Shown here: positions 3,667 through 45,747 of the stretch, in pieces
Numbering within the stretch: position 1 is the first letter of the stretch
Layout: each line of letters begins with the position of its first letter
Assembly: GCA_947499255.1 (NCBI GenBank)
Contig: CANMNF010000003.1
Location: 62,001-126,000, forward strand
DNA: 64,000 nt
Direction of reading: 5' to 3'
Source of the DNA: an uncultured Sphingomonadaceae bacterium
GTDB taxonomy: Bacteria > Pseudomonadota > Alphaproteobacteria > Sphingomonadales > Sphingomonadaceae
Notes under the pieces: model-generated
What the model saw: the letters and a program-made list of their open reading frames with translations, nothing else
The model's database searches: none
Told to the model about the DNA's origin: nothing
Translations under genes and position numbers: made by a program

Positions 3667-4364
3667 CACGCTTGCCGCGCTTCATCGGCAAACACGGTGT
3701 TCCAGGCTTTTTCCGCGCCTGCAAGGTGGCTCGTCATCGCTGCTTCTGCTGCATCGGCATCACCGCGTTTGATCGCGCTGAAAATGCGTTTGTGATCGCG
3801 ATGAGATCGCGCCTGACGCGCACCGTTGCAGAAATAGAACTGCCGCAGGTTCTCACTCATCGCGTAGAATATCTGCGACAAATTATAAAACACATCATTT
3901 TGCGCCGCCCGGATCACGGCAAGGTGAAAAGCGCGGTCGCATTCAGCCATATTGCCGCCGCTTTCGATCAATGTGTTTTCAACGTCGAGCAAATGCGCAA
4001 GGCGTTCAATGTCCTCATCGGTTCGGTTAAGCGCGGCCATGCGCACCGCGCCGATTTCATGAATGCGCCGCATTTCGACAGCTTGGCGCACAGCCTTTTC
4101 ATCGATAGGGACGCCCAGTTTTGCATATAGCACCATGGCTTCAAGGCTTGGGCCACTTGTCGCGATAAAAACACCCGACTTGGATCGGCGTTCAACGATC
4201 CTCAACGCTTCAAGATAGCTTAAAGCTTCGCGGATCTGGTTGCGGCTGACATTGAACCGTTCGGCCAGTTCACGCTCGGATGGAACACGATCACCAGGCT
4301 GATAGCGCCGCTGTTTGAAGAACGGCACAAGATTGCCGACCAATGCGGGCTGATTGTTCATCAT
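3666..4364 (-). CDS. GntR family regulator, FadR subfamily
   Basis: A 232-residue regulator. Residues ~10-75 are a winged helix-turn-helix (RVPSERELAERFNVSRNQIREALSYLE spans the recognition region), and residues ~90-225 form an all-helical FCD effector domain with the usual metal-binding pattern of Asp/His residues (ECDRAFHLAV, SHRDHKRIF and SHLAGAE). FCD members bind small organic acids. The start ATGA overlaps the stop of the enolase-superfamily gene, so the regulator is embedded in the operon it most likely controls. A palindrome TGGTTGGACCA at 6549-6559, matching the FadR-type pattern TNGTNNNACNA, lies upstream of the isomerase gene and is its probable operator. Confidence 0.9.
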   Translation of the reverse strand: MMNNQPALVGNLVPFFKQRRYQPGDRVPSERELAERFNVSRNQIREALSYLEALRIVERRSKSGVFIATSGPSLEAMVLYAKLGVPIDEKAVRQAVEMRRIHEIGAVRMAALNRTDEDIERLAHLLDVENTLIESGGNMAECDRAFHLAVIRAAQNDVFYNLSQIFYAMSENLRQFYFCNGARQARSHRDHKRIFSAIKRGDADAAEAAMTSHLAGAEKAWNTVFADEARQA

Positions 4365-5584
4365 CCAACACCGTGTGAGACGGTGTGCTGCTGCACAAAC
4401 GCCTCGTTAACGGTAAGACCAAGGCCGGGGCGTTCCGGCAGCGTAATCTGGCCATCTTCGACCAGGATATCTTCTTCAATCATATCTTTGATCAAAGGGT
4501 TCGCCCCAAGCGAATACTCGACAATCCAACCGCATGGGCTGCTCGCCAGAACCGCAAGTCCGGCCATAAAGCCGAATGCACCACCCCACATGTGCGGGGC
4601 AAGTTGCAGATTATATGCCGAAGCCAATGCAGCGATGCGCATCCCCTCGCTGATACCGCCACAAACCGCCATGTCTGGTTGCACAATATCGACACATCCA
4701 GAAGCCATAAGATCGCGGAAATCGAAGCGCGTATATTCGCTTTCACCAGAAGCAATGGGAATGTCTGTGGAGCTTCGCACCATCGCCATGCCGGCATTAT
4801 CATCGGCTGTGACAGGTTCTTCCAGCCAGCCAATATTGCAATCAGCCACCAACCTGCAAAACCGCTTCGCTTCTGACACAGAGAACGTGCCATGCGCATC
4901 ACAGAAAATGGATATGTCAGGGCCAAGCGCCTCACGCGCGGCATGAACACGCGCGGCGGAAATTTCGGGGCGGCCGTCCATCACTCCAACGCGCATCTTT
5001 ACAGCACCAAATCCGCCTGCATCGACATAGGATTGCAGCTGTTCACCGATGCTTTCTGCCGGAGCCCAACCACCCGACGCATAGGCCGGGAAAGTTTCTG
5101 CACGCCTGCCGCCAAGCAATTGCCAAACCGGAACGCCAAGGTCCTTACCCAGCAAATCCCACAAGGCGATGTCGATTGCCGACAGCCCGGCAATGGTGAT
5201 GCCTCGTCGGGATAATTCGGGAAACACCCTGCCGCGCGCCTGCGTGTAATGCGCGCGCACACCATTATATATGGCGTCCCAAATTGCAGCGATATTACGC
5301 GAATCGCGCCCAATGAGATCAGGCGCCATGTCGCGATTGATCAAAGCAGCAAGACCAGAATACGAACCCGCACTGCCAGCCGCATTCTTGGCTTCACCCC
5401 AGCCGACCAGTCCGCCTTCGGTTTCTATTCGGACAAGAACGGTATCAAAGGTTTTGATACGCCCGAAATCGCTGACATGCTGTTGCTCAACATCGATAGG
5501 AACGGAAAGCTCGATAGCTTCTACTGAAGCGATTCTAGCTGCCGCAGTATTTTCGCCTATGTTCAGACGCGAAAGCGTGGCCAC
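4361..5584 (-). CDS. Mandelate racemase/muconate lactonizing enzyme family protein
   Basis: A 407-residue enolase-superfamily enzyme of the mandelate racemase subgroup. Visible residues are the K-x-R pair (FGAVKMRVG), metal ligands in IFCDAHG, WLEEPV and SGESE, and the Asp-His dyad in VQPDMAVCGG and LAPHMWGG. This set abstracts a proton alpha to a carboxylate, normally to dehydrate or racemise a sugar acid. The best start is GTG at 5584; no better ATG exists. It begins 5 nt after the stop of the isomerase gene and overlaps the GntR start by 4 nt. The exact acid sugar cannot be told from sequence alone. Confidence 0.88.
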   Translation of the reverse strand: MATLSRLNIGENTAAARIASVEAIELSVPIDVEQQHVSDFGRIKTFDTVLVRIETEGGLVGWGEAKNAAGSAGSYSGLAALINRDMAPDLIGRDSRNIAAIWDAIYNGVRAHYTQARGRVFPELSRRGITIAGLSAIDIALWDLLGKDLGVPVWQLLGGRRAETFPAYASGGWAPAESIGEQLQSYVDAGGFGAVKMRVGVMDGRPEISAARVHAAREALGPDISIFCDAHGTFSVSEAKRFCRLVADCNIGWLEEPVTADDNAGMAMVRSSTDIPIASGESEYTRFDFRDLMASGCVDIVQPDMAVCGGISEGMRIAALASAYNLQLAPHMWGGAFGFMAGLAVLASSPCGWIVEYSLGANPLIKDMIEEDILVEDGQITLPERPGLGLTVNEAFVQQHTVSHGVG

Positions 5585-31908: not shown

Positions 31909-32928
31909 TTAGGATCCGTAGTCCTCCAGCATTGCAACAAGACCGCGCTCCTCGCGGCTCATATACTTGGTTTTGCGTGGAAGTTGCAGCCCCTTACGCC
32001 ACGTGTTTTGATCGCCTTTGGTCAAGTCGATCAAGGCGGGGTGAATATAAGATTTTCTCGCAATCGCTGGAGTGTTTCCCAGATGACCGGAAACATGCTC
32101 CAGCAAGGCTTTTAGCGTCACATCCTCCTTTGCATCGGCCAGCAGCTCGAAAGCCATGAGCGAGCCAGACCACGTGCGAAAGTGCTTTGCGCTGAAATCG
32201 GCGCCCATCGCCTCTTTAATGTATGCGTTGACTTCGGATGATCCGACCGGGCGCGGCTTGTCGTTTTCATCGAGATATTGAAACAATTGCTGGCCAGGGA
32301 TGTCTTGCAATCGCTTGATCAAAGAGCTCAGGATGCGATCAGTAACATTGACTTCGCGCAATTTACCGGACTTCGCTTTGTAGCTTAACGTCACCTGTTT
32401 GCCGGTCAATTTCGCATGGCGTCTGCGCAGCGTGGTAGCTCCAAAACTGCCATTGGTTTTGGCATAACGATCATTGCCCACGCGCAACGCGCAAACGTCA
32501 AGCAACCTTACGATTGCTGCTACAATAGCTCGAAAATCAAGCTGTTTTCCCTGTAAATCCTGCGCAACGCGCGCCCGAAGCAAAGGCAGGGATTTGCCAA
32601 AACTGACACAATTGGCATATTTTTCCGCCTCCATCTGAGCGCGAAAATCGGGATGATAGCGATATTGCTTGCGGCCTTTGGCGTCATATCCCGTGGCGAG
32701 AATATGGCCATTGCTGGCAGGGCAAAACCACGCATCCTGATATGCCGGCGGCAAAGCTATGGCATTAAGCCGTTTGATTTCAGCGGTTTTGTTTATCGGC
32801 TCTCCACTGGCGGCGATATAACACCAGTTCTCGCCCTTCTTTTTACGAGTGATACCCGGCAAATCGTCATCGACGAAAATCAGATCGTTGATCTGGCTCT
32901 CATCAGTCGTTTTCTGCACCGTGGTCAT
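31909..32928 (-). CDS. DNA topoisomerase IB (poxvirus type)
   Basis: A 339-residue type IB topoisomerase. Catalytic residues are visible in VGNDRYAKTNGSFGATTLRRRH, KAKSGK, KHFRTWSG and the nucleophile region ARKSYIHPALI (Tyr in KSYIHP). It relaxes supercoils by a 3'-phosphotyrosyl intermediate. The start MTTVQK at 32928 is preferred because GAGGAG lies about 13 nt upstream; the frame is open from 32985. It is divergent from the radical SAM-UdgX repair pair, so it may belong to a DNA-damage locus. Confidence 0.88.
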   Translation of the reverse strand: MTTVQKTTDESQINDLIFVDDDLPGITRKKKGENWCYIAASGEPINKTAEIKRLNAIALPPAYQDAWFCPASNGHILATGYDAKGRKQYRYHPDFRAQMEAEKYANCVSFGKSLPLLRARVAQDLQGKQLDFRAIVAAIVRLLDVCALRVGNDRYAKTNGSFGATTLRRRHAKLTGKQVTLSYKAKSGKLREVNVTDRILSSLIKRLQDIPGQQLFQYLDENDKPRPVGSSEVNAYIKEAMGADFSAKHFRTWSGSLMAFELLADAKEDVTLKALLEHVSGHLGNTPAIARKSYIHPALIDLTKGDQNTWRKGLQLPRKTKYMSREERGLVAMLEDYGS

Positions 32929-33166
32929 TGCGAGCGCTCGCTCCTCAGGCTGGCCGACCTGAACAGCTGTTGAGAGAACCTGCACGAGGTGAGTAGGAGG
33001 CTAAGTCTTATTATGATCATACAAAGGGTTAATCGAAATAGCGGCCCAAGTGTTCCACGCGGCTCGTAATAGGCGGGTTTGATCAACCTTACACTCCCGG
33101 AAAATCAGTCTAATGAGAGCAATTAGAATTCTTGATAAAAAACAAACCTTTGCAAATTGTGTTGGA

Positions 33167-33181
33167 GAACATATACAGAAC
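33167..33181 (+). promoter_or_regulatory. LexA-type SOS box
   Basis: GAACATATACAGAAC is a perfect GAAC-N7-GAAC direct repeat, the alphaproteobacterial LexA recognition pattern. It ends 2 nt before the ATG of the radical SAM gene, so LexA bound here would block transcription of the radical SAM-UdgX pair. The presence of lexA cannot be checked in this window. Confidence 0.75.
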
Positions 33182-33183
33182 TT

Positions 33184-34428
33184 ATGGCAAAGTTACCGAT
33201 TCTGGAAAAGCTCAAAATTCTGGCGGATGCAGCCAAATATGATGCATCCTGCGCATCATCGGGGACGGCGAAACGGCATTCGAAAAACGGTACTGGGATC
33301 GGCTCAACAGAGGGGATGGGCATTTGCCACGCTTATGCCCCTGATGGCCGTTGCATCTCCCTGTTAAAGATCTTGCTGACCAATCACTGCATTTTCGATT
33401 GCCATTATTGCATCAACCGCAAAAGCTCCAACGTCCGACGAGCGCGCTTTACCCCACAGGAAGTTGTTGATCTCACTTTGAGCTTTTATCGCCGGAATTA
33501 TATCGAAGGACTGTTCCTGTCCTCAGGCATCTTGAAAAGCTCAAGCCACACGATGGAACAGATGGTGGAAGTGGCGCGAATATTGCGGGAAGAGCATGAT
33601 TTTCGCGGCTACATCCACCTCAAATCCATTCCTGAAGCTGATCCTGAACTGGTTTATCGCGCGGGGCTCCATGCAGATCGGGTGTCGATCAATGTGGAAT
33701 TACCCACGGATAAGGGGCTCACCAGGCTGGCACCAGACAAAGATGCCGGGGTCATAGCGGGCGCGATGGGGGCGGTGAAAACGTCCATCGTAGAAGCCAA
33801 AGACTCGCGCAAACGTTTTCGTCATGCCCCGCGCTTTGCCCCGGCCGGGCAATCCACACAAATGATCGTCGGCGCAGATGGCGCCAGCGACGTGCAAATC
33901 ATTGGCAAAGCAAGCCAGCTCTACGCAAATTTTGGCCTGCGACGTGTATATTATTCAGCGTTCAGCCCTATTCCCGATGCAAGCGCGGTGCTGCCGTTAC
34001 AGCGCCCGCCGCTGGTTCGCGAACATCGCTTGTATCAATCAGACTGGTTGATGCGGTTTTATGGTTACCGTCAGGATGAAATCGCTCAGGCGGCAGATGC
34101 AACGGGAAATCTGCCTTTGGATATTGATCCCAAATTGGCCTGGGCGCTGAAGTTTCGGGGGCTTTTTCCAGTTGATGTGAACCGCGCACCGCGCGAGATG
34201 TTGCTGCGGGTTCCAGGGCTTGGTGTACGAGCGGCAGGCCATATCCTCGCTGCCCGCCGCCAACGGTCATTGCGGTTAGAGGATGTCGCTAGAATGACCG
34301 TTTCGGTCATCAAGATAAGACCTTTTATTTGCACCGCAGACTGGCAGCCCGCTTCGCTGACTGACCGGGATGATCTGCGCGCAATGCTGGCACCCAAGCA
34401 AGAGCAGCTTGAATTGTTCGCCGCATGA
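33184..34428 (+). CDS. Putative DNA modification/repair radical SAM protein
   Basis: A 414-residue radical SAM enzyme of the family that is co-located with UdgX-type uracil-DNA glycosylases. The cluster motif CIFDCHYC (C-x3-C-x2-C) binds the 4Fe-4S centre, and the C-terminal part has a helix-hairpin-helix element VPGLGVRAAGHI that would touch DNA. The start MAKLPILEKL at 33184 is used; the frame is open from 33157. It overlaps the UdgX gene by 4 nt. The reaction is not known; the operon and LexA-type box point to repair or tolerance of damaged DNA. Confidence 0.88.
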   Translation: MAKLPILEKLKILADAAKYDASCASSGTAKRHSKNGTGIGSTEGMGICHAYAPDGRCISLLKILLTNHCIFDCHYCINRKSSNVRRARFTPQEVVDLTLSFYRRNYIEGLFLSSGILKSSSHTMEQMVEVARILREEHDFRGYIHLKSIPEADPELVYRAGLHADRVSINVELPTDKGLTRLAPDKDAGVIAGAMGAVKTSIVEAKDSRKRFRHAPRFAPAGQSTQMIVGADGASDVQIIGKASQLYANFGLRRVYYSAFSPIPDASAVLPLQRPPLVREHRLYQSDWLMRFYGYRQDEIAQAADATGNLPLDIDPKLAWALKFRGLFPVDVNRAPREMLLRVPGLGVRAAGHILAARRQRSLRLEDVARMTVSVIKIRPFICTADWQPASLTDRDDLRAMLAPKQEQLELFAA

Positions 34429-35855
34429 GTGCCAAGGCACAAACCACCAATGCGCCGCTGATCGAAGTCGCTTTGCCTGCGTCTGACGACTTTACACATT
34501 GGCGCGACATCGCTCGTCTGCTGGTGCAATCCGGCGTGGAGCCCGAATGCGTATTGTGGAATGAGCCAGGAGGAGATGCAGGCCTTTTTGCCAATACGTC
34601 GCAACTGCCCGATCCGGCGCCCGGCGCGCCGCCTCCGCGAGCGAACCGTAAATTTATGCAAATGGCGCAAAATGCCATTCTGCACTCAGACCCTTCAAGG
34701 TTTGCTCTGCTTTACAGATTGTTATGGCGGCAACAGAGCAATCTGCAGGTTTTGGACGACCATGCTGATGCCGATGTCAGGCTGCTTGAGCAATTTGATC
34801 GAACGGTGCGCCGAGACAAGCACAAGATGCGCGCTTTTTTAAGATTTCGCGCTGTCGAGGATAAGGATACCGGTGGTGAGCATTTCGTCGCCTGGTTTGA
34901 ACCTGATCATCATATCGTGCGTGCCAACGCGTCATTTTTCATTCGCCGCTTTGCCAATATGCGCTGGTCAATCCTGACCCCGCAATTGAGCCTGCACTGG
35001 GACGGCACTGTGTTGCGTGAGGGGCCGGCTGCGCAGCGCGAAGATGCGCCATCTGGTGATCCGACCGAAGATCTTTGGCGCAGCTATTACGCAGCCATTT
35101 TCAATCCGGCGCGATTGAAAGTCGGTGCGATGTTGAAGGAAATGCCAAAGCGATATTGGAAAAATATGCCCGAGGCGGAACTGATCCCTGAGCTTATTGC
35201 AGGAGCACAGCACCGAGAAACACAAATGGTGCTGGAAGGCGAAGACCTTCGCGACCCTGCACCGCTAACTTTAAAAGAAACGCACCGCGCGGTTATAGAA
35301 TGTCGCCGCTGCGCAATTTGTGAATTGAATACGAATGCGGTCATAGGCGAGGGGCCAGAGGACGCGCCATTGATGATTGTTGGCGAACAGCCGGGAGATC
35401 AGGAAGATCGCACCGGGCGACCGTTTGTTGGACCGGCAGGCCAATTGCTCGATCAGCATCTGACACAGGCCGGGATAGAACGGCGGGCCGCTTATGTGAC
35501 ATCAGCGGTCAAGCATTTCAAATACGTTCAGCGCGGAAAGCGAAGACTTCATCAAACCCCGCACGCCAAAGAAATTGATATGTGTCGCTGGTGGCTGGAA
35601 GCCGAGCGTAGCATCGTAAAGCCAAAACTCGTATTGGCGCTAGGCGCTAGTGCGGCTCGCAGTCTGCTTGGTAAAACGGTTAGCATCGCTTCGGCTCGTG
35701 GACGTCCACAAACTTTGGAAGATGGGAGCGAATTGTGGATCACAGCGCATCCGTCCTACCTTCTGCGATTGGGCGATGATGCGCGGGCGCACCAAGCACA
35801 TTTATTCGCTCGCGACCTTACCGCTGTGCAACAACGTTTGGAAGAATTAACGTAG
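34425..35855 (+). CDS. udgX: UdgX family uracil-DNA binding protein with N-terminal DUF4130 domain
   Basis: A 476-residue two-domain protein. Residues ~1-230 match the DUF4130 partner domain of the radical SAM protein (MPKRYWKNMPEAELIPEL near its end). Residues ~280-476 are an iron-sulfur uracil-DNA glycosylase domain: Cys pair CRRCAIC, motif GEQPGDQED, the UdgX-specific insertion QRGKRRLHQTP, whose His forms a covalent bond to uracil-derived abasic DNA in studied UdgX, and the final ITAHPSYLLR. Its ATG overlaps the radical SAM stop. In the family it tightly traps uracil-containing DNA. Confidence 0.9.
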   Translation: MSAKAQTTNAPLIEVALPASDDFTHWRDIARLLVQSGVEPECVLWNEPGGDAGLFANTSQLPDPAPGAPPPRANRKFMQMAQNAILHSDPSRFALLYRLLWRQQSNLQVLDDHADADVRLLEQFDRTVRRDKHKMRAFLRFRAVEDKDTGGEHFVAWFEPDHHIVRANASFFIRRFANMRWSILTPQLSLHWDGTVLREGPAAQREDAPSGDPTEDLWRSYYAAIFNPARLKVGAMLKEMPKRYWKNMPEAELIPELIAGAQHRETQMVLEGEDLRDPAPLTLKETHRAVIECRRCAICELNTNAVIGEGPEDAPLMIVGEQPGDQEDRTGRPFVGPAGQLLDQHLTQAGIERRAAYVTSAVKHFKYVQRGKRRLHQTPHAKEIDMCRWWLEAERSIVKPKLVLALGASAARSLLGKTVSIASARGRPQTLEDGSELWITAHPSYLLRLGDDARAHQAHLFARDLTAVQQRLEELT

Positions 35856-43422: not shown

Positions 43423-45747
43423 TTAGAAGCGCTGGAGGAGGGTAACCCCTACTTGGCGACCATTGCCAGGATAGATGTTTTCCTGACGTACCGAACAACG
43501 GCGGCCACAGTTGCCCGCGGTGTTTGCCTCGGTGCTTGAAATCGTAAGCACATTGGCGATCCACGCAGTATCAAACACGTTGTTCACCCAGAAGGCAATT
43601 TCTGTCTCTGGTGTTTCGAACGTTAGACGATAGTTGAACAAATTGGTCGCAGGAATAGTCGCTGCACCGATGCTCGTGGTTTTGCGGTTGCCTTCATGCG
43701 AGAAATTGAACCGGTTGCGCATGTCGAAATCACCAAAGATCGATGGAACCGTATGCGTAACGGATGCAAAAGCCTGCGTATTGGAAGCTTTGAAAATGCG
43801 ATTCCCGCTAACATCACCGGTACAGGTGCTGTTTACGAAATCATCCGTTTGCGCGATACAGGCACGATCAAATGCGCCATCAACAAATCCTTCATTATAG
43901 GTAGGATCAAGCAATGTTCCCGAGAAGTTGAACATCAGATTGTCGGTAGCGAAAATCGTGGCATCCAGTTCAACACCAAGCGATGTCGCACCAGGACCGT
44001 TGAAGACACCGCCGGAACCAATCGTCAGATCACCTGGTGCAGGTGTTTGCAGATTTGTCCAATCGATAAAGTAGAAGGCGGTGTTCAAAATCACATTGCC
44101 ATCCAGCAGTGTTGACTTTGAACCGATCTCATATGTCCAGTTCGTTTCTGGTTCAAAGGTGAAGAAATCCAGACCTTCGCGACCAGCATTGATACCGCCA
44201 GTTTTTACACCGTGTGCGGCATATGCATAGATCAGGTGATCATCGTTCGGACGGAACTCAACTGTACCCCGACCGGCGAAATAATCGAAGCCAACCGATT
44301 CTTCGGTGTCGGCGAGGATCAGGTTGAAGAGAATGAAATTCTGGAAAACGTCCAGAGTTTGCTCTTCGTCAGTGTAGCGAAGCTCACCACCAATGGTCAG
44401 CTTGTCGTTCAAGTCGATCGACAATGCGCCAAAGAACGATGTGATTTCCTGCTCAAGTGTTTCGCTGAAATCACTGATGACAACAAGGTTGTCGATCTCA
44501 CCCAGAAGCGCGCCTTGGCTTGCAGTTTGCAGGCTGGAAGACGAATCATAGTAGGTCGCGCCAAGCAACCATTCGATGGGTCCGGCATTATTTGATGCCA
44601 GTTGCAGTTCATAAGACTGTTGTTCGGCAGAATCGCCGGCAGTGTCTGTCAAGAAGAAGGAAGACACAGGTCCAGCCAGCACACGGTCAACCGCGGTAAT
44701 GTCACCAACGTTATCGAAGAAACCGTCAAAGCCTGATTCTGTATGCGACACCATCGCGCTCAAGGTCGCGCCAGCAAAGTCATATTCTGCGCGGGCATAG
44801 CCAAGGAACAGGTTACCGGTATTACCAAAGCCGCGATTGTCCAGTGCAACCGAGTCAGGAATTGGCAGCTCGCCGCTCAGCAACGTGAAAAACGTACCGT
44901 TGTCGTTTTGATATTGAGCACCAGCATCGTTGTCACGGAAATTTGGCGCGAACAGCGCTGGCTGATCTTCTGCCACGCTGTTGCGTACGCCGAAAACCTT
45001 GATCCTGAAGTCAGGCGTAGCTTCCAGAAGAAGCGATGCACCAATAGACTGGCGTTTATCCCAACCGCCAAGGTTCTGGCCGCCACGATCGTTTTCGATT
45101 GTGCCATCAAAGGTGCTGATGCCGCCGAATACGCGGATCGCAGCGCTATCGCCCAGAGGAAGGTTCACAGAGCCACGAATTGCTCCGCGCTCATCCGTGC
45201 CGCCTTCAACCTGAACATAGCCTTCGACCTCGCCGAGGATCGGTGCGCGCGACACGTAATTGATCGCGCCTGCAAATGAGTCGCGACCGTAAAGTGCGCT
45301 TTGCGGGCCTTTGGCGACTTCGATACGCGCCAGATCCATATTGCCGAATTCGAAACCGGAACGGTTGTTGATATACACACCGTCCAGGAAGATGCCGACA
45401 TTCGTTTGGATGCCGCCACCATCAGTTTGCGCCAGACCACGAATGGTTGGTGCGCCAAGCGCGCGGGTGTTTGTGAACTGGAGGCCTGGCGTAGCTGCTG
45501 CGAGATCTTCAAGTCCCTGAATATTCGCTTCGCGCAGCCCGTCATCGTCGAATGCAGAGATTGAAAGTGGAACGTCCTGCAAGCTTTCTTCGCGACGACG
45601 CGCGGAAACGAGAATTCTGTTATCCTGCGATCCCTCTGCTGTGTCGGTAGCTTGTTGACTGGTACCTTGTGCGTGCGCTGGTGCCGAAATACCCACTGCA
45701 ATAACCGCAGCAAGTGATAGACCCGAAATTTTTACGATCCGCCTCAT
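43423..45747 (-). CDS. TonB-dependent outer membrane receptor
   Basis: A 774-residue receptor. The start MRRIVKISG at 45747 follows AAGGGGTGAC and opens a signal peptide ending APAHAQ. A TonB-box-like DNRILVSARR precedes the plug (residues ~45-160, LQDVPLSISAFDDD, TPGLQF, VYINNRSGFEF, GPQSALYGRDSFAGAINYVS). The barrel follows and ends VTLLQRF. In sphingomonads such receptors import hydrophobic or plant-derived compounds. It is transcribed ahead of the exported SRPBCC gene and within the IclR-flanked cluster. The upstream 504-nt gap up to 46251 holds no clear gene. Confidence 0.9.
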   Translation of the reverse strand: MRRIVKISGLSLAAVIAVGISAPAHAQGTSQQATDTAEGSQDNRILVSARRREESLQDVPLSISAFDDDGLREANIQGLEDLAAATPGLQFTNTRALGAPTIRGLAQTDGGGIQTNVGIFLDGVYINNRSGFEFGNMDLARIEVAKGPQSALYGRDSFAGAINYVSRAPILGEVEGYVQVEGGTDERGAIRGSVNLPLGDSAAIRVFGGISTFDGTIENDRGGQNLGGWDKRQSIGASLLLEATPDFRIKVFGVRNSVAEDQPALFAPNFRDNDAGAQYQNDNGTFFTLLSGELPIPDSVALDNRGFGNTGNLFLGYARAEYDFAGATLSAMVSHTESGFDGFFDNVGDITAVDRVLAGPVSSFFLTDTAGDSAEQQSYELQLASNNAGPIEWLLGATYYDSSSSLQTASQGALLGEIDNLVVISDFSETLEQEITSFFGALSIDLNDKLTIGGELRYTDEEQTLDVFQNFILFNLILADTEESVGFDYFAGRGTVEFRPNDDHLIYAYAAHGVKTGGINAGREGLDFFTFEPETNWTYEIGSKSTLLDGNVILNTAFYFIDWTNLQTPAPGDLTIGSGGVFNGPGATSLGVELDATIFATDNLMFNFSGTLLDPTYNEGFVDGAFDRACIAQTDDFVNSTCTGDVSGNRIFKASNTQAFASVTHTVPSIFGDFDMRNRFNFSHEGNRKTTSIGAATIPATNLFNYRLTFETPETEIAFWVNNVFDTAWIANVLTISSTEANTAGNCGRRCSVRQENIYPGNGRQVGVTLLQRF

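Follow-up and report, generated by a model that had tools for sequence, protein, structure and literature searches.

A conserved LexA box at the start of a radical SAM-UdgX operon points to SOS control in Alphaproteobacteria

We report that an operon encoding a radical SAM protein and a DUF4130-UdgX fusion in an uncultured Sphingomonadaceae bacterium appears, with a probability of about 0.8 as judged by sequence comparison, to be under SOS control. The operon lies in a stretch of 64,000 nucleotides, the whole of which was analysed and is called the window here. In agreement with the original prediction, which had placed a perfect box 2 nt before the radical SAM ATG, GAACATATACAGAAC at positions 33167-33181 of the plus strand reads GAAC-N7-GAAC and is followed by TT and then by that ATG at 33184-33186. 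Since the box stands at the start codon and is matched by boxes in distant relatives, these repair proteins are very probably made upon DNA damage. The box, its conservation, the switching of the operator between classes, the spacing, the gene families, the catalytic motifs and the linkage to dnaE2 are all read directly from sequence. The features of the locus, by position in the window, are:

31909..32928, minus strand: DNA topoisomerase IB (PF01028, PF21338), the divergent neighbour, with its ATG at 32928 and its ORF open to a GTG at 32985
32961..32979, plus strand: GAAC-N11-GAAC pair (halves at 32961-32964 and 32976-32979) with a spacing unlike that of a LexA box, from the sequence
33149-33154, plus strand: alternative -35 hexamer TTTGCA with a 17-bp spacer, from the sequence
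33150..33155, plus strand: -35-like hexamer TTGCAA with a 16-bp spacer to TATACA, the counterpart of TTG(A/G)CA aligned at -35 to -30 in 97 loci
33167..33181, plus strand: LexA box GAAC-N7-GAAC, from the sequence and its conservation in relatives
33172..33177, plus strand: predicted -10 hexamer TATACA within the LexA-box spacer, at -12 to -7 from the A of the ATG
33184..33186, plus strand: radical SAM ATG and predicted (leaderless) transcription start, 7 nt past the -10 hexamer
33184..34428, plus strand: radical SAM protein, TIGR03916, 414 aa (NCBIfam 579.6 bits, cut-off 343.5)
33388..33411, plus strand: CIFDCHYC, the CxxxCxxC iron-sulfur motif of the radical SAM protein, from a motif search
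34425..35855, plus strand: DUF4130-UdgX fusion, 476 aa (TIGR03915 over residues 20-251, TIGR03914 over residues 253-468; PF13566, PF03167)
35538..35552, plus strand: KRRLH, the R-loop with the covalent histidine of UdgX, from a motif search

The family models TIGR03916, TIGR03915 and TIGR03914 bear out the earlier reading of the two genes as a radical SAM protein and a UdgX fused to DUF4130. The radical SAM family TIGR03916 is, we assume, the one called COG4277. Its iron-sulfur pattern C...C..C was present in all 80 radical SAM relatives from named genomes (the best 80 of 591 loci), and the window's protein carries near its C-terminus a segment that, by eye, resembles a helix-hairpin-helix. 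The end of the first ORF and the start of the second share 4 nt (ATGA, 34425-34428). The UdgX part scores 305.2 bits against TIGR03914 (cut-off 189.95) and contains motif A (GEQPG), the R-loop KRRLH and HPSYLLR; with the covalent-trap motif in place, the protein would indeed be of the type predicted to trap uracil-DNA. Among 72 parsed UdgX sequences, the window's included, three were truncated or misparsed and were left out, and the R-loop histidine was retained in 68 of the 69 that could be read. The single readable sequence in which asparagine replaces the covalent histidine (KRRLN) is that of locus L102. Sequence search for solved structures gave significant relatives for the UdgX part (6ajo, 6iod, 8iie and others), and none for DUF4130 or the radical SAM family. 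The three structures named are presumably those of mycobacterial UdgX.

The divergent topoisomerase IB gene is probably not part of this operon, and a topoisomerase IB gene was found divergently upstream in 4 of the 80 named relatives (best 80 of 591). Its ATG lies about 240 bp from the LexA box, and the GAAC pair near 32960 has the 11-nt spacing noted in the original prediction, which does not fit a LexA box; on both grounds the topoisomerase gene is plausibly outside LexA control.

By count alone the box is unremarkable. GAACN7GAAC occurs twice in the window where 1.32 matches are expected, and 37 of 100 shuffled sequences reach two; the other match, at 44140-44154, is deep within an 811-codon ORF and is probably due to chance. 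Across the 2.96-Mb genome there are 74 sites of this type (31 + 43), compared with 157 (74 + 83) for a reversed control pattern, and many of the 74 fall inside long ORFs and are probably chance occurrences too. Enrichment by count was therefore rejected as evidence, because the raw numbers in window and genome do not exceed the controls. The box is special by its place and its conservation, and it is on these two that the case for SOS control rests.

Conservation was followed first in a nearer set, mostly of Sphingomonadales. In a protein search of 61 genomes, the window's among them, 23 had the radical SAM gene (24 rows); a 53-residue match in G028 (locus L093) was left out of the box alignment and start-region counts. 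Named genomes (Erythrobacter, Qipengyuania, Novosphingobium, Sphingomonas and others, with some metagenome-assembled genomes titled only by class or phylum) were scanned as well and added 80 further loci, the best 80 of 591. After removal of 3 duplicates from 103, this gave 100 distinct loci including the window's own. The original prediction had held that absence of the box from close relatives would refute SOS control; the exact GAAC-N7-GAAC box is kept in 97 of these 100 loci, a set that includes the best 80 of 591 named loci. Two of the remaining three are one-base half-site variants, and one, at 65% identity, has a 6-nt spacer.

The survey was also extended to the class (190 genomes, 10 over the TIGR03916 cut-off, with matches below it in 7 genomes dropped) and to the phylum (398 genomes, 84 over the cut-off, with matches below it in 15 genomes dropped). 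As a control, Caulobacter crescentus gave matches to both TIGR03916 and TIGR03915. With a duplicate genome (G072) counted once, reducing 61 rows to 60 alphaproteobacterial loci, the two surveys together comprise 89 distinct loci outside the own genome, 60 from Alphaproteobacteria and 29 from other classes; one locus of the nearer set, that of G010, is also in this wider set. An alpha-type box was defined as GAACN7GAAC or GTTCN7GTTC, in either orientation, between -200 and +45 of the start. Such a box is found near the radical SAM start in all 60 alphaproteobacterial loci, which carry 14 family labels, and in none of the 29 others, whereas the E. coli-type box CTGT-N8-ACAG is found in 19 of the 29 and in none of the 60. 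About 0.9% of randomised 245-nt start regions contain an alpha-type box in either orientation; the rates by dinucleotide walk were 0.9 and 0.6% for this box and 0.1 and 0.3% for CTGT-N8-ACAG. Five more of the 29 other-class loci have CTG-N10-CAG with the second half one base off, and the last five have no recognisable LexA-type box. Among the 60 alpha-type boxes a few have a high GC content or extend over the start (L258, L244, L264). The split of the two box types by class suggests that the operator switches from one class to another while SOS control itself appears to be kept.

In three non-alphaproteobacterial loci (L226, L227 and L231, from G530, G330 and G614) a palindrome, TCTCATCCAATGAGA (TCTCAT-N3-ATGAGA), lies upstream of the radical SAM gene. 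As it has one occurrence per genome, always at this gene, we did not count it as a further LexA operator.

It could be argued that the window's box is a chance GAACN7GAAC and that the operon is constitutive or obeys another regulator, and the counts in window and genome, being no higher than chance, would allow this. We regard it as very improbable, given that the box recurs in all 60 alphaproteobacterial loci of the wider surveys and in 97 of the 100 nearer ones, and that an E. coli-type box takes its place in 19 of the 29 loci from other classes. The same three tallies favour SOS control of the pair, as had been proposed from the window's sequence.

Boxes elsewhere in the genome, where the original prediction had recommended scoring them, are found upstream of lexA, recA, uvrA, rmuC, radA and an MmcB-like gene (mmcB), among others. 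Ahead of the lexA gene (TIGR00498, 172.4 bits, cut-off 110.95) stand two boxes with a common half-site, at distances of 33 and 44 nt from the ATG; in pcrA/uvrD a box lies 4 nt before a GTG start, and in pdeM it lies over the first codons. The genes lexA, recA, radA and pdeM pass their NCBIfam cut-offs and MmcB passes the Pfam cut-off, while uvrA and pcrA are cut by the end of the locus, and rmuC and an S24 peptidase gene score below the NCBIfam cut-off. In this S24 gene (L069:1500-1888 on contig C4; PF00717, UmuD-like), 2 nt separate a box from the first ATG. At rmuC (L004:1501-2864), GTTCGCGCTATGTTC stands 5 nt before the ATG, with TTGGCG 17 bp upstream of TATGTT, a promoter layout that would give a leaderless start as well. 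A second spacing rule, by which a box in the GTTC orientation would stand 5 nt before the ATG, was considered and rejected; rmuC fits it in the own genome, but the gaps are scattered across 26 genomes. A further box precedes a gene at L015, 2.3 kb before dnaE2 on contig C1. This gene matched no family among the NCBIfam and Pfam models, and we call it imuA, provisionally, by its position and the likeness of its start to those in relatives.

The distance from the box to the first in-frame start codon is 2 nt in 80 of the 97 nearer loci with an exact box, 3-4 nt in 7 and 7-27 nt in 10. When these 97 loci are aligned on the box, columns -57 to -43 hold almost no information (at most 0.15 bit), and two conserved regions stand out: T at -35 (87 loci), G at -33 (89) and C at -31 (74), and then T at -12 (97), A at -11 (97), T at -10 (72) and A at -9 (81). 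From this alignment we predict a promoter of the sigma-70 type in the relatives' start region, with a spacer of 17 bp, its -10 element inside the LexA spacer and its +1 on the A of the ATG. At a spacer of 16-18 bp, 76 of the 97 loci had a hexamer agreeing with TTGACA in 4 or more of its 6 positions, as against 9.5% of shuffled upstream regions. The window's own hexamers are weak, TATACA and TTGCAA each matching the consensus at 4 of 6 positions across a 16-bp spacer, and a strict promoter scan of the window reported no promoter at the radical SAM start. Across 26 genomes, the pattern GAACNTANNNNGAACN{0,20}ATG, which requires TA in the box spacer, gave 69 matches, compared with 9 for its reversed control; apart from the start of the radical SAM gene, one site that recurs is at the imuA-like gene, where the leader contains GGAG.

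A -35 element together with a TATA inside the box would place transcription on the A of the ATG, and a leaderless start on the A of ATG 33184 is probable. The operon might instead be SOS-controlled and have a leader, the second half of the box together with the preceding bases (e.g. AAGGAAC) serving as a weak ribosome site for a transcript that starts further upstream. AGGA in the box region of 22 of the 87 short-gap loci (2-4 nt), which could be such a site, would suit this arrangement, as would the longer leaders of 10 of the 97 loci, 2 of which have a core resembling a Shine-Dalgarno sequence. Yet conservation is weak at the two spacer bases that would complete AGGA (0.62 and 0.19 bit) and strong at the -35 and TATA elements; GGAG or GAGG precedes the start in none of the 87 short-gap loci, and all 87 begin with ATG. 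We therefore think a leadered transcript unlikely in the window. Mean pairing with the anti-Shine-Dalgarno sequence is -6.1 kcal/mol in the 10 later-start loci, as against -3.2 kcal/mol, but since an AGGA, GGAG or GAGG core precedes the start in only the 2 mentioned, this leadered minority is not clearly explained. In five loci with a later start codon (L105, L106, L107, L112 and L114) the leader after the box looks, by eye, capable of forming a hairpin (GGAACAC...GTGTTCC-like).

Beyond the window's family, 14 of 47 alphaproteobacterial loci have the 2-nt gap, 12 have the box in the other orientation and 21 have scattered gaps, which indicates that the merged architecture of box, promoter and start codon recurs without being universal. 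One locus of the wider survey (L235) has the 2-nt gap in front of a GTG start.

The radical SAM and DUF4130-UdgX genes co-occur in the same 23 of the 61 genomes, although in one of these (G015) they are some 380 kb apart. In 19 of the 23, by comparison of coordinates by hand, dnaE2 lies directly downstream of udgX; it does not follow udgX in the own genome, G015 or G020, and the locus of G038 ends at a contig border. The gene taken as dnaE2 matches the model of an error-prone DNA polymerase (NF004225, 1384 bits, cut-off 939), and its position after udgX in these relatives ties the pair to SOS mutagenesis. Among the 80 named loci (best 80 of 591), udgX is next on the same strand in 75 and is followed by dnaE2 in 24, while imuB is upstream in 25 and both imuB and dnaE2 are present in 23; the right flank of 6 of the 80 was too short to judge. 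We use the names imuA and imuB by position, together with Y-family polymerase domains in the case of imuB and, for imuA, one weak match, below the cut-off of the ImuA model, in the imuA of one relative. In the window's genome the pair stands alone on contig C3 beside topoisomerase IB, and dnaE2 is on contig C1.

Two variants of this neighbourhood may be mentioned. In G001, which lacks the pair, dnaE2 itself stands behind the same promoter with a 2-nt gap. This had suggested that radical SAM-udgX replaces dnaE2 behind a shared promoter, an idea we rejected because dnaE2 comes after udgX in 19 of 23 genomes. At L142 a hemerythrin-type gene (4321-4740; PF01814, 59.5 bits) lies between the radical SAM gene and udgX, and other Sphingomonas loci have a gap similar to that of L142 between the two genes.

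We infer LexA binding, induction, the transcription start, the substrates and the order of events along the following lines. The box would be a working LexA operator, and LexA bound to it would cover the -10 region and reach the start codon, keeping the operon off. RecA filaments on single-stranded DNA would trigger self-cleavage of LexA, allowing RNA polymerase to use the -35 element and the TATA inside the box; transcription would then start on the A of the ATG and yield a leaderless mRNA for both genes, whose translation is probably coupled through the ATGA overlap. UdgX would remove uracil and remain attached covalently to the abasic site, which it would protect from strand breakage during gap filling or bypass; in many relatives this step would fall to the co-transcribed error-prone polymerase. 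The radical SAM protein would act by radical chemistry, its target being a damaged base or the capped site.

That UdgX caps uracil or abasic sites during the SOS response is a tentative proposal, for which we hold somewhat less than even odds. A protection by UdgX of AP sites, and of the genome against fragmentation, with later resolution by a RecA-dependent or a proteolytic route, is proposed in the accessible part of PMC10359453 and would fit both the SOS timing and the linkage to dnaE2. The fuller picture, in which the pair is an accessory of the ImuAB-DnaE2 mutasome, must be called doubtful as a whole: UdgX would cap uracil or abasic sites in single-stranded gaps against breakage, the radical SAM enzyme would process the lesion or the capped site, DnaE2 would complete the bypass, and a one-piece switch of LexA operator, -10 element and leaderless start would gate expression. 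The SOS role could also be one of ordinary base-excision repair, cleaning up residues misincorporated by SOS polymerases, with the covalent capture by UdgX incidental. A role against ribonucleotide misincorporation by SOS-induced polymerases is suggested in the part of PMC8565304 available to us, and the presence of dnaE2 right behind the pair in 19 of 23 relatives and in 24 of the 80 named loci (best 80 of 591) would accord with it; the covalent histidine kept in 68 of 69 readable sequences, on the other hand, suggests that capture is under selection. Such a clean-up role seems to us less likely than not.

A conserved SOS switch together with the linkage to dnaE2 would say when UdgX acts and with which partners, so that its role becomes testable in laboratory strains. 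The merging of operator, -10 element and start codon is a compact design in which repression and translation start can be tested in one reporter.

How far is this pair known already? In its accessible part, PMC8565304 describes, on the basis of motifs, a two-gene COG1573-COG4277 operon of Bacteroidetes as SOS-regulated, and states that SOS regulation of such a system has been reported in Verrucomicrobia and Alphaproteobacteria. As in our locus, a uracil-DNA glycosylase gene and a partner there form a two-gene operon under LexA-type control, and with this in print SOS control of the pair is not new in kind. The portion of PMC3765255 at hand presents DUF4130 as a predicted mutagenesis-related enzyme associated with SplB-like radical SAM and UDG genes; it differs from the present analysis in being a figure-legend remark, without an operator analysis of the operon. 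For LexA itself, the available text of PMC12700426 gives GTTCN7GTTC as the Caulobacter motif and that of PMC9380542 names one radical SAM gene as a member of the Streptomyces LexA regulon, and the radical SAM-UdgX pair is not mentioned in the accessible parts of PMC1839093, PMC6120978 and PMC13384398. In the titles and abstract openings of a largely open-access literature we found no description of a LexA operator merged with a leaderless start.

With mycobacterial UdgX, whose motifs are named as GEQPG, KRRIH and HPS in the accessible part of PMC10359453, a source that calls the precise physiological role of UdgX largely unknown, the window's protein shares GEQPG, KRR[IL]H and HPS, and covalent capture of uracil sites is likewise to be expected of it. 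It differs in its fusion to DUF4130 and in its radical SAM partner gene, the pair being preceded by a LexA box. The imuA-imuB-dnaE2 cassette has LexA-type boxes as well, and imuB and dnaE2 flank the pair in 23 of the 80 named loci (best 80 of 591), whereas the window's pair on contig C3 is detached from dnaE2, which lies near the L015 box on contig C1. Neither a merged operator, -10 element and start codon nor a linkage to dnaE2 is described for the COG1573-COG4277 operon in the part of PMC8565304 available to us. What appears to be new, then, is that many relatives have the pair placed with imuB on one side and dnaE2 on the other, and the one-piece element in which the operator, the -10 element and the start codon of a predicted leaderless mRNA coincide, together with the extent of its conservation.
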